From Candidatus Liptonbacteria bacterium (GTDB taxonomy: Bacteria; Patescibacteriota; Minisyncoccia; UBA6257; 2-01-FULL-56-20): 42,815 nt of DNA. Location of the stretch: assembly GCA_016194445.1 (NCBI GenBank), contig JACQBP010000027.1, positions 1-42,815 on the forward strand. Reading direction: 5' to 3'. The position numbers and the translations under genes were made by a program. This document shows positions 1 to 33,902 of this stretch, piece by piece. Every line of letters starts with the position of its first letter. Positions within the stretch are counted from its first letter, which is position 1. The notes beneath the pieces are model-generated. The model had not been told where the DNA came from, did no database searches, and worked only from the letters and a program-made list of their open reading frames with translations.

Positions 1-558
1 AGGAGGTCGAACCGAAGAAAAACTTTCGATTATTTCTCGCAGTAACCCGAGGATTTTTTGCTCATCAATATAACCAACCAAAATTTTGAGCAAAACTTCG
101 TGATCGATATTTTCAAAAAACTTTCTGATATCGCATTTCAGAATCCAAACTGTGCGAGTATGGTTTCGGCTAACCTTGTAAGCCAAGGCTCGAAAACGGT
201 TGATCGCCGTGTGTGTCCCTTTATTTAAGCGACAGGAGAAAGAATCCGCGGTGAATAACCTGTCAAAAAAAGGATAAAGTTTTCGGTAAATTGCGTGATG
301 AAGCAAACGATCATGGACAGAAGCTTTATGAATATTTCTTGGCTTCGGATCAGAGATGTTGAAGGCTACGTAACCGCCATGGGCGTAAGAGAAGTTTACA
401 AGCGCCCTATGAAGCGTTAGGATGTTATCCATTAACCTTAGCCCAAATTCCTGAATGTCGCGCTTACCGCGTTTCCCGCGCAAAAATTCCCGCCAGGCCA
501 GAAGCAAGTTATCAACCGATATAATCTCTTCATAAATCAGCCCAAACTTTCTTTTCAT
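1..558 (-). CDS. Reverse transcriptase of DGR cassette 1 (N-terminal part; runs off the left window edge)
   Basis: Open minus frame from ATG at 558 to position 1, 186 codons with no stop, absent from the ORF track: MKRKFGLIYEEIISVDNLLLAWREFLRGKRGKRDIQEFG...SDPKPRNIHKASVHDRLLHHAIYRKLYPFFDRLFTADSFSCRLNKGTHTAINRF...VWILKCDIRKFFENIDHEVLLKIL. This matches the N-terminal and palm-1 regions of group II/DGR-type RTs. The YxDD box would lie outside the window. Confidence 0.9.
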   Translation of the reverse strand, partial: MKRKFGLIYEEIISVDNLLLAWREFLRGKRGKRDIQEFGLRLMDNILTLHRALVNFSYAHGGYVAFNISDPKPRNIHKASVHDRLLHHAIYRKLYPFFDRLFTADSFSCRLNKGTHTAINRFRALAYKVSRNHTRTVWILKCDIRKFFENIDHEVLLKILVGYIDEQKILGLLREIIESFSSVRPP

Positions 559-593
559 AAAAAGATGACCTTGAGCCCCCCCCGCACTCTCGT

Positions 594-926
594 TTGACCA
601 TTATCCAAAGATTAATCTCGAGCTACAAGCTCTGGCAGGATTTCCTACGCCACTTTCCGAAGACTTCCAGATACACGCTTGGCGAAAAAATCGATCGCCT
701 CTTTATTGAAATTCTTGAGCTCACCCTGGAAGCGAGTTACTTACCAAGAAACAGGAAAGCTCCGTCAATCGAGAAAGCTGTCATCAAGTTAGGATCCTTA
801 AAATTCTTCTTGCAAGTTGCTTGGGAAATTAAGGCTCTCAAAACCAGTCAGTATGCCTTAGTTTCCGAAAAAATCGATGAAATTGGCAGGATGCTAGGCG
901 GATGGTTAAAACAAATATTAAGCTAA
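594..926 (+). CDS. avd: DGR accessory variability determinant, Avd-like four-helix bundle
   Basis: 110 aa with Avd-type signatures (FPKTSRYTLGEKIDRLFIEILELTLEASY...SEKIDEIGRMLGGWLK). TTG start; lies between the RT and the TR but on the opposite strand. Confidence 0.87.
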   Translation: MTIIQRLISSYKLWQDFLRHFPKTSRYTLGEKIDRLFIEILELTLEASYLPRNRKAPSIEKAVIKLGSLKFFLQVAWEIKALKTSQYALVSEKIDEIGRMLGGWLKQILS

Positions 927-952: not shown

Positions 953-968
953 AAAGCAAAGCCAATTT

Positions 969-1106
969 CTGACGGCGGCAAAACGATAGAAGCCGCCCCA
1001 CCCGTCGTCAACCCAGCGCAAACGCAGGTCACGCTCCGCATCATTCCGATTGAGGTAAGGAACGTTCCAGTTGCCGTTCGAGTTCTGCCAACGCGAACCA
1101 ATGTTT
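969..1106 (-). other. DGR template repeat TR1
   Basis: Aligns without gaps to 1511-1648 (offset 542). Over 969-1101 there are 15 mismatches, 13 at T on + (A in coding orientation). Minus-strand reading is Asn-rich: IGSRWQNSNGNWNVPYLNRNDAERDLRLRWVDDGWGGFYRFAAV. Confidence 0.92.
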
Positions 1107-1136
1107 AGAATGTCATCTACGCCACTGTTCCTCGAA

Positions 1137-1167
1137 AAAATCTTGGAACTGTATCTAATTTGGGATC
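1137..1167 (-). promoter_or_regulatory. Conserved block 5' of TR1
   Basis: aaaatcttggaactgtatctaatttgggatc matches 32916-32946 in cassette 2 at 27/31; 35 nt from the TR edge versus 36 nt in cassette 2. Confidence 0.6.
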
Positions 1168-1451
1168 TCATTCAGTAGATGATTCACCAGAATCACTCTG
1201 GGAGCTGACCTACTGGGCTAAATCCTCCAACATCCTAAACCAAGTAGCTTTGTTTTTGAAGAATCTGGTTGCGACACTGGAGCAAGAAATATCCGACCCC
1301 ACTCTGCGCTTTTCTTGACCTAAAAAATCCTAAATTAGGAAACCGATTCTAGAATTCGGCCGCTTGAAGCCGTGGCCGCAAGCTTACGAGCCTACTATCC
1401 GTTTAGTATTTTAAAATAATTCTCGGGTTTTTCAAAATTTAAAATAAGAAA

Positions 1452-1503: not shown

Positions 1504-2115
1504 CTACTTGCTGACGGCGGCAAAACGATAGATGCCGCCCCACCCGACGTCAACCCAGCGCAAACGCAGGGCACGCTCCGCATCATGCCGAGCGAGGGCA
1601 GGAACGAGCCAGCGGCCGTGCGAGTGCAGCCAACGCGAACCAAGCGCGACCACTGGAAATTCTCGCTGAAGATCGGGGTGCTTCTCGCCGAGCGCGAGCA
1701 GTTCCGGTAGTTCGGCGGGTCGAAGTCCGAGTTTGTCGAGCTCACAAAGGACGTCGTCGGTGGTCATATCTCGTTCAAAATGGACGAGCTGGACTCCGAC
1801 TTCGGCTGTGTCGTTTCGCTTCGACGGGAAGTGGTCTTGGGTAATATCACTGTTTACCCAATCGTACTTTCCAGCCGCGATTCCATCCGCCACGCTCCGG
1901 TCATAGTTGATCGAGAGGGTATAGGTGGGGAATTTCGGCTTGCTCGATTCCAAAATCATTTCCGCAAATCTTTCGATCAGCGGACTTTCCTCGGTAACCG
2001 CGGCGTGGAAATCCGCGTCGCTGATTCCCCGTTTCTGGCGGGCTTTTTCAAGCGCCGACCAGAAACCAGTGATCAAACCGGCGCCGCTCACCGTTGCGGG
2101 AACACTCTTTGCCAT
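1504..2115 (-). CDS. DGR target (variable) protein 1, C-type-lectin-like C-terminus
   Basis: Start MAKSVPATVSGAG at 2115 preceded by AAAGGAG; the tracked ORF start at 2139 is upstream. The C-terminus LGLRPAELPELLALGEKHPDLQREFPVVALGSRWLHSHGRWLVPALARHDAERALRLRWVDVGWGGIYRFAAVSK carries VR1 and looks like DGR variable proteins. Confidence 0.87.
   Translation of the reverse strand: MAKSVPATVSGAGLITGFWSALEKARQKRGISDADFHAAVTEESPLIERFAEMILESSKPKFPTYTLSINYDRSVADGIAAGKYDWVNSDITQDHFPSKRNDTAEVGVQLVHFERDMTTDDVLCELDKLGLRPAELPELLALGEKHPDLQREFPVVALGSRWLHSHGRWLVPALARHDAERALRLRWVDVGWGGIYRFAAVSK
1511..1648 (-). other. DGR variable repeat VR1
   Basis: See TR1. Lies at the 3' end of the target CDS; the stop codon is at 1504-1506. 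Confidence 0.92.
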
Positions 2116-32131: not shown

Positions 32132-32368
32132 TCAACTAATAATTCTTTGGATGCCAAAAGTGTTTCCGTGCTTCGTGAGTCCAAGATAGGAGTTTAAAAC
32201 TTCACTACAAGGGTTAGTTTTTATTCGAGCCAACATTCTTCTTTTGGTCGCTGTCCGCAAAACTCGATGGTCAGGAAAATTCACCCAGCCCAAAAAATCC
32301 ACCCCCGACGCCAAAGTTTTTATAAAAACTTTGTTCGGGTGAAGCTCGAGCCTTAGCTTATCCTTGAA
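32132..32368 (-). pseudogene. C-terminal fragment of a DGR reverse transcriptase (catalytic domain missing)
   Basis: FKDKLRLELHPNKVFIKTLASGVDFLGWVNFPDHRVLRTATKRRMLARI...LNSYLGLTKHGNTFGIQRIIS is the RT thumb/C-terminal pattern; no palm or YxDD segment upstream. Confidence 0.8.
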
Positions 32369-32383
32369 CCCCCCCCCGCACTT

Positions 32384-32746
32384 TTGCCCATACTCGAAAA
32401 GACGAAAAGCGCTTATTTTATATGGTACCGTTTCTACCAAATCCTCCCCAAACCCCATCGACACACGCTGGGCGCAAAAATTGACGTTATCTTTGCTGAT
32501 ATTATAGAAGCTATTACCACCGCTGTCTTTCTCTCTCGCGAAGACAAACTTCCTTGGGTTCGTCTCGCTATTAGAAAAATGGATTTGCTAAAAGTTTTCC
32601 TATTGATTTTATGGGAAACAAAATCAATCGATAACAAAAAGTATATCGCCCTGTCAACAGAGTTAGATAAAATCGGCAAAATGCTCGGCGGCTGGAGCGG
32701 TCAACTTACAAAACAAAACTCCCCTAGAAAGCAAGGGGAGAAATAA
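32384..32746 (+). CDS. avd: Avd-like protein, DGR cassette 2
   Basis: LPKPHRHTLGAKIDVIFADIIEAITTAVFLSREDKLPWVRLAIRKMDLLKVFLLILWETKSIDNKKYIALSTELDKIGKMLGGWSGQL; parallels cassette 1 Avd. Confidence 0.85.
   Translation: MPILEKTKSAYFIWYRFYQILPKPHRHTLGAKIDVIFADIIEAITTAVFLSREDKLPWVRLAIRKMDLLKVFLLILWETKSIDNKKYIALSTELDKIGKMLGGWSGQLTKQNSPRKQGEK
32719..32740 (-). terminator. Hairpin 3' of TR2 (terminator-like)
   Basis: CTCCCC...GGGGAG; minus strand continues TTTTGTTTTG. Confidence 0.6.
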
Positions 32747-32752
32747 AGCGAG

Positions 32753-32879
32753 TTGCGAGACGGCGAAGGCAAAGCCATTCTCACGATTCCACTTGTTGTC
32801 AGGATTGTCGAAGCACGTGTTGAGCCATCGGCCGTCATCATTCCGGTTCGCGTTCAGAAGTTTCGGATCACCGTCAGAA
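32753..32879 (-). other. DGR template repeat TR2
   Basis: 127 bp, ungapped alignment to 33220-33346 (offset 467): 17 mismatches, 16 at T on + (A in coding orientation). Confidence 0.93.
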
Positions 32880-32915
32880 ACGCGAGGAATATCACCCATT
32901 TCACTGCTCTTTGAT

Positions 32916-32946
32916 AAAATCTTGGAGCTGAATCTAATTCGGCATC
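32916..32946 (-). promoter_or_regulatory. Conserved block 5' of TR2
   Basis: aaaatcttggagctgaatctaattcggcatc; see 1137-1167. Confidence 0.6.
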
Positions 32947-33132
32947 GCAATGCCCTAATACTCCTCGCCAAGTAACTTTATTTTTTAAAGTCATTATGCG
33001 TCACGCTATCCGAAATCTTAATCGCGGATATTCCGGACATAAAACAACTTGGATTCGGTAGCAGGAAACCATGATCTCCCGCGTATTCACCTAATACCAA
33101 ACGAAGCATATACCATTTCCAATATAAAAATC

Positions 33133-33165
33133 TAGCTCCGTTCCGAAAAATCCGGAACGGAGCTA
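33133..33165 (-). terminator. Terminator downstream of DGR target 2
   Basis: TAGCTCCGTTCCG-AAAAATC-CGGAACGGAGCTA; minus strand continues GATTTTTA. Confidence 0.75.
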
Positions 33166-33173
33166 AGGGCTAA

Positions 33174-33201
33174 GTTCCTAAGCGCTACAGCGCAAAGGAA
33201 C
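33174..33201. other. Hairpin/cruciform immediately downstream of target 2 / VR2
   Basis: GTTCC TAA GCGC TACA GCGC AAA GGAAC, abutting the stop codon. Confidence 0.5.
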
Positions 33202-33837
33202 CTAAGCGTTGAGTGCTACTTGCGAGACGGCGAAGGCAAAGCCACTCCCACGATACCACTCGTTGTCAGGACTGTCGAAGCACGTGCCGAGCCATCGGCC
33301 GTCAACAATCCGGCCCGCGTCCAGAAGCGACGAATCACCGCCAGAATCCTTGATGGGTTCATGCATGGCGACGATCCAGATCAGCCCCATGGCTTCGATC
33401 TCCTTGTCCGTGAATTTCTCGCGGATGAGGCAGGCCAGTTCGGCGTTCGGCTTAGTCAGCTTGCGACGTTCGGCCTCGGCGCGAATCTTCTTCGTGATCC
33501 GGTCGTTGTCCTCGAAGAGCATGCCCTTGAGAACGGCGACTTCGGTCGTCACGCCGTTGGTCGGCTTGAAGTCCGGCGAACGGAGCACCTGCTTGGCGTA
33601 GTTTCCGACGCGGAAGCCTTTGCTCTCGAGCCGGGTGATCCAGTCCTCGCCGGTCGTGCCATCGCTGGTGACCGAGAAGTATATCACGCCATCTTTCTCA
33701 CGCCACGAGCGGGTCGATTCGGAAACCGAGAGTTCGTCGCGGAGAAAACGGAGCGCCATGTCGTGGCCACCGAGCTTCTTGACGATGGCATTGAGTTGAC
33801 CGGCGGTGAGGCCGGCGGATGCGAATTCTGTGCTCAT
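33202..33837 (-). CDS. DGR target (variable) protein 2
   Basis: Start MSTEFASAGLTAGQLNAIVKKLGGHDMALRFL at 33837 with GGGAGGTTTT upstream; C-terminal VR2 SLLDAGRIVDGRWLGTCFDSPDNEWYRGSGFAFAVSQVALNA. Confidence 0.88.
   Translation of the reverse strand: MSTEFASAGLTAGQLNAIVKKLGGHDMALRFLRDELSVSESTRSWREKDGVIYFSVTSDGTTGEDWITRLESKGFRVGNYAKQVLRSPDFKPTNGVTTEVAVLKGMLFEDNDRITKKIRAEAERRKLTKPNAELACLIREKFTDKEIEAMGLIWIVAMHEPIKDSGGDSSLLDAGRIVDGRWLGTCFDSPDNEWYRGSGFAFAVSQVALNA
33220..33346 (-). other. DGR variable repeat VR2
   Basis: See TR2. Confidence 0.93.
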
Positions 33838-33902
33838 AAAACCTCCCTCGCGCTTCTGTGCGCGTTTCATTTCCCTCTGTGCCGAGGAGGCACCATGAAC
33901 CG

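Follow-up and report, generated by a model that had tools for sequence, protein, structure and literature searches.

The window analysed here is the whole of contig C29 (42,815 bp) of a Candidatus Liptonbacteria genome, G000, which comprises 894 kb in 48 contigs and is estimated to be 99% complete. Three DGR cassettes were found in this genome: cassettes 1 and 2, both in the window, and a reduced third cassette on contig C45. As assembled, no RT frame is intact across the three. Cassette 2 is located between folD and glyA and consists of the following features:

33202..33837, minus strand: target gene of cassette 2 (211 aa), an intact ORF in the ORF list, with the VR at its 3′ end
33220..33346, minus strand: VR2, 127 bp (TR/VR scan)
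32874..33001, minus strand: structured 5′ leader RNA upstream of TR2 (covariance model R1, 95.2 bits, E 9e-21; covariation)
32753..32879, minus strand: TR2, 127 bp (TR/VR scan)
32711..32740, minus strand: terminator-like hairpin directly 3′ of TR2 in the sequence, CTCCCC..GGGGAG and then TTTTGTTTT
32384..32746, plus strand: avd2, with a TTG start (NF033474 E 1.5e-15, bAvd E 7.5e-10)
32369..32377, plus strand: C9 simple-repeat tract at the 5′ end of avd2, adjoining the deletion junction
32132..32368, minus strand: RT2 stump, RT profile positions 263-339 only (128.9 bits)

TR2 and VR2 differ at 17 of 127 positions, and 16 of the 17 differences fall at adenines of the TR, of which TR2 has 32 (hypergeometric P = 1.1e-10); the sole exception is one C->T. 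VR2 occupies the last codons of the target ORF. The TR/VR scan and the ORF list agree with the sequence-only reading of this DNA, which had described a TR/VR pair with this adenine bias beside an intact target ORF. Hairpins like that 3′ of TR2 come after the TR in most relatives whose 3′ flanks were compared. The VRs of DGR targets commonly sit in a C-type-lectin-like domain. Target 2 has no sequence match in Pfam, NCBIfam or PDB, and its AlphaFold model shows pLDDT < 50 over most of the VR; comparison of the predicted fold with PDB yielded no significant match (best E 0.48); C-type lectins are numerous among the hits.

RT2 was earlier called decapitated, and the profile of related RTs confirms this: what remains is the last ~75 codons, without the palm and without YADD. 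Cassette 2 is a remnant, non-autonomous DGR rather than a complete member, because all that is left of a DGR-type RT is profile positions 263-339. Avd is a common but not universal DGR accessory protein. Avd2 matches DivGenRetAVD (NF033474) at E 1.5e-15, below that model's curated cut-off, as well as bAvd (E 7.5e-10) and PHROG 3206 'Avd protein of DGR'. In the start analysis no ATG ahead of the C tract is in frame, and one TTG could act as a start. The claim that cassette 2 keeps Avd therefore holds for the profile matches but less so for a working gene: avd2 is not clearly expressible, judging from its sequence, because the region where relatives start avd fell inside a deletion described below.

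The leader RNA upstream of the TR is built of a 12-bp closing stem and two hairpins. The structure was obtained from 45 RT-bearing loci, with G000 and RT-less loci excluded, and displays compensatory changes in 19 of 21 pairs. In this alignment 95.7% of cells pair, vs. 73.4% in shuffled and at most 55.4% in slid controls, the comparison with the slid controls being favoured by the derivation of the structure from the tested alignment itself. Model R1, built without cassettes 1, 2 and 3, detects the leader in all three of them, and a search of Rfam with the cassette 2 region (32600-33900) returned no match. An RNA similarity peculiar to cassettes 1 and 2, in the form of a shared hairpin CAGYTCCAAGATTTT, was considered and failed on measurement: their leaders reach only the 80th percentile of identity among between-genome pairs. 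The shared flanking blocks that had been taken to favour service in trans are thus a clade-wide structured leader RNA and do not link these two cassettes in particular. The third cassette (L165, G000:C45) retains a leader (L165:409-545), a TR and part of a VR; 4 of 4 TR/VR differences are at A, neither Avd nor RT lies alongside, and the gene that follows looks like metG.

Cassette 1 lies at the left end of the window:

1..558, minus strand: N-terminal 186 codons of RT1, continuing on contig C11 (L014)
576..583, plus strand: C8 tract at the 5′ end of avd1; with a tract of this length, the ATG that lies 11 nt upstream is not in frame
594..926, plus strand: avd1 (NF033474 E 3.8e-22, bAvd E 1.2e-15)
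966..1101, minus strand: TR1, with 14 of 16 differences at A
1095..1273, minus strand: structured 5′ leader RNA upstream of TR1 (R1, 95.4 bits)
1508..1643, minus strand: VR1, inside target 1 (1504-2112; TR/VR scan)

RT1, the sole other RT found in G000, is cut by the contig end, and its remainder including YADD is on C11, whose right end exactly repeats C29:1-141. This 141-bp identical overlap inside RT1 suggests an assembly (k-mer) branch point. The part of RT1 on C11 (L014 7570-8202) contains two frame breaks, one after YADDFVIF and the other at GTTTTATCAAAAC, as well as a 45-bp tandem duplication. The frameshifts lie close to a contig end and could reflect an assembly error or a strain mixture, so that a working RT may exist. 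The proposal that cassette 1 supplies its RT in trans nevertheless gains no support from RT1, which as assembled is split between contigs, frame-broken and not demonstrably working.

GTDB genomes were scanned for loci encoding relatives of target 2, the collections holding one genome per species; the related loci named below (L numbers) come from CPR/Patescibacteria genomes. The target 2 family comprises 32 loci with relatives, many of them 80-85% identical, in Nomura-, Uhr-, Wolfe-, Vogel-, Lipton- and Wildermuthbacteria and other lineages. Such identity across distant CPR lineages leads us to infer horizontal spread, and cassette 2 would belong to a horizontally mobile CPR DGR family. The order in relatives is target, leader RNA, TR, avd (reverse) and full RT. 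A full RT is kept in L183, L188, L190, L191, L209, L210 and L212, whereas the RT is frameshifted at its C-terminus in L193 (a G004 locus) and split in L186. In L183, L188, L190, L191 and L193, where the RT is full or nearly so, the TR/VR differences are adenine-only (16/16 to 21/21); L212 has a full RT but only 15 of its 21 differences at adenines. According to the sequence-only reading, an intact RT at this locus in related genomes would refute the idea and betray an assembly artefact here. Such RTs do exist at the cassette level, but their presence in other CPR genomes points to a secondary deletion in cassette 2, not to an artefact. Mis-joining of RT1 onto cassette 2 during assembly was also considered and is unlikely, as the stump differs from RT1 by ~10% and stumps recur elsewhere.

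C-terminal RT stumps were found in L091, L166, L168, L172, L174, L202 and L214; in several of them the left breakpoint is close to RT profile positions 263-279, and several are undecayed. The TR is ruined in L172 and L174, the RT tail is decayed in L168, L201 is an N-terminal RT fragment, and L192 has an Avd fragment and TR/VR without RT. The target 2 family also includes many orphan targets. Cassette 2 is one step in a populated decay series. In L198 and L206 the target VR runs straight into the 3′ flank of a TR, as would result from a VR x TR recombination that removed the leader and the TR. In another locus, L124 (G034:C61), two VRs correspond to a single TR; the first lies upstream and the second between avd and RT, with 17/17 and 13/13 differences at A. 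Among the RTs compared, RT1 comes closest to the cassette 2 stump (90% identity), no other exceeds 77%, and the stump's own cassette family reaches ~71%, which makes cassette 2 a mosaic of that family and an RT1-like RT.

The deletion junction reads G8-CTCAAGG-TCATC..ATG in cassette 1, TTACAAGATAAGCTAAAG in RT1 and G9-TTCAAGGATAAGCTAAGG in cassette 2; it is also given as G8-CTCAAGGTCATC..ATG, TTACAAGATAAGC and G9-TTCAAGGATAAGC, respectively. These sequences would be accounted for by loss of an internal segment, the ends having joined at a short CAAG-like match next to the simple-repeat tract. Such a deletion would have taken approximately the first three quarters of the RT together with the region of the divergent avd and RT starts, so that the tail of the RT is what is left. 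The loss appears to be young. The stump scores 128.9 bits against a median of 130.7 for intact C-termini, and over ~43 codons it differs from RT1 by 12 synonymous changes and 1 non-synonymous change. These counts show that the lost RT frame was formerly under purifying selection, and they suggest that the stump and RT1 frames were both selected until recently. TR2 departs from the TR consensus of relatives at 19 non-adenine positions and VR2 tracks it at every one of them, a tally counted by eye in which the direction of change is not polarised; the TR2/VR2 core has one non-adenine mismatch. This suggests that retrohoming ran late in the lineage of cassette 2, though some of these 19 positions may have arisen outside the lineage of the window. 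Purifying selection on the lost frame, the undecayed stump and the tracking of TR2 by VR2 together argue that RT2 was probably lost recently.

The simple-repeat tract beside the junction recurs in other loci. In 39 of 57 loci the interval that separates the divergent starts of avd and RT contains a G run of 7-12, and several loci without that run carry (GA)n or a tetranucleotide repeat instead. Read in the avd sense, C7 or longer occurs in 43 loci, the avd frame being open through the tract in 41. No in-frame ATG follows the tract in any of these 43 loci; an in-frame GTG or TTG does so in 21. An ATG lies at most 45 nt upstream of the tract in 39 loci; 9 of these ATGs are in frame, 19 are shifted by one and 11 by two. 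The tract resembles a switch for phase variation in the 5′ end of avd, and the three ATG phases are what a phase-variable start would give; an untranslated tract is a possible alternative. Among the papers listed by a limited literature search, none deals with phase variation of a DGR, which is not proof of novelty.

The question whether cassette 2 is a fossil or is served in trans was raised before, with a leaning towards trans. The best account, which we regard as somewhat better than an even chance, is that cassette 2 has just been frozen by a recent loss of its RT and is now dormant. In the sequenced strain it would retain the last VR2 variant, and its rescue would be only conditional, through RT and Avd from elsewhere, either from an intact RT1 allele or from cells of the population that may still hold RT2. 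Dormancy is preferred to service in trans because of the state of RT1 and the lost start region of avd2. For trans service, TR2 RNA with its leader would be reverse-transcribed by the RT of another cassette, e.g., cassette 1, perhaps with its Avd, and the cDNA would home to VR2. This is a tentative option, clearly less probable than dormancy. The intact leader RNA and TR2/VR2 agree with it, but they do not prove it, given that L168, L172 and L174, with a ruined TR or RT, keep leaders of 82-103 bits. A recurrent class of RT-less cassettes speaks for it more directly. Avd/TR/VR cassettes with no RT trace whatever occur in G006, G283, G091 and G105, each of which carries an intact RT elsewhere in the genome; G283 also has one cassette with an RT stump. 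G006, whose intact RT is on another contig, has an in-frame avd ATG in its RT-less cassette (L089); in its RT-bearing cassette the ATG, 13 nt before the tract, is out of frame (n = 1). Trans diversification was reported in Thiohalocapsa (PMC10907252). Ten RT-less cassettes, several of them with no trace of an RT (L089, L093, L096, L100), have 9 of 153 TR/VR differences at non-A positions, and 55 RT-bearing ones have 50 of 941 (Mann-Whitney P 0.92). This cleanness counts against freezing, and continued service would explain it too; however, RT-less cassettes are equally clean in two genomes whose searches turned up no intact RT, G041 and G022, and in G000, where RT1 is broken. The clean pattern cannot, on these sequences, separate continued service from recent loss and is no proof of the former. 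The broken frame of RT1 on C11 and the lack of special similarity between the leaders of cassettes 1 and 2 weigh further against it. What stands of the earlier leaning is thus the recurrent RT-less class, with four genomes that hold an intact RT, and what does not is a demonstrated donor.

Two other explanations were weighed against the dormancy of cassette 2. Cells with an intact RT2 (or RT1) may coexist in the population, with the assembly representing one variant and VR2 diversity being made in cis, as reported for DGRs 3 and 7 of Thiohalocapsa (PMC10907252). The C11/C29 overlap in RT1, at exactly 141 bases, resembles what a k-mer branch point would leave. We consider such a mixture improbable here, and the ~10% difference between stump and RT1 means that the stump is not a mis-joined RT1. 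Even less credible, and close to negligible, is that the stump is kept for a function, either as a short protein formed by the thumb domain or as a DNA/RNA element. Although stumps recur, most of them broken on the left near profile positions 263-279 and several without decay, undecayed stumps also occur beside a ruined TR (L172, L174), which fits recent deletion; moreover, no conserved start codon was established, and an N-terminal RT fragment exists too (L201).

The closest parallel is the set of incomplete DGR loci of Thiohalocapsa PB-PSB1, in which, as here, the RT is missing or disrupted beside complete loci in one genome, and for which trans activity and intact structural variants were both considered (PMC10907252). 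The trans-diversified VRs of Thiohalocapsa match the TR of another cassette, whereas VR2 matches its own TR2, so that cassette 2 would need only an RT, perhaps with Avd, in trans. The DGR of BPP-1 shares RT, Avd, TR, VR, adenine-specific differences and a hairpin 3′ of the VR; it differs in that avd, TR and RT run in one direction, while avd here runs against TR and RT, and in that the RNA recruiting RT-Avd lies 3′ of the TR, while the conserved structured RNA here is 5′ of it (PMC12875486). The likeness to DGR clade 2 of Patescibacteria/CPR consists in both being cell-encoded Patescibacteria DGRs and does not extend to a clade placement of RT1; the passages of that paper drawn on here hold no discussion of RT loss (PMC8144416). 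Remote variable proteins of cyanobacteria are likewise hypervariable targets away from any RT, one of them with remnant TR-VR homology and no RT nearby, but they mostly have no local TR, while cassette 2 keeps TR, leader and Avd (PMC7517822).

A broader and rather doubtful idea is that the DGR machinery of CPR acts as a shared, phase-variable service, in which cassettes stripped of RT and/or Avd but sharing the leader RNA would be served by whichever cassette has both an intact RT and an avd with its simple-repeat tract in frame, cassette 2 being one such client. A DGR RT that serves templates stripped of their own RT would bear on how small genomes come to have many hypervariable genes. About ten natural test cases that have their own TR and VR but lack an RT are supplied here, together with matched relatives; several of these cases come from genomes that carry an intact RT at another locus. 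In addition, the TR-leader RNA without an Rfam match and the repeat at the avd start make the regulation of CPR DGRs testable.
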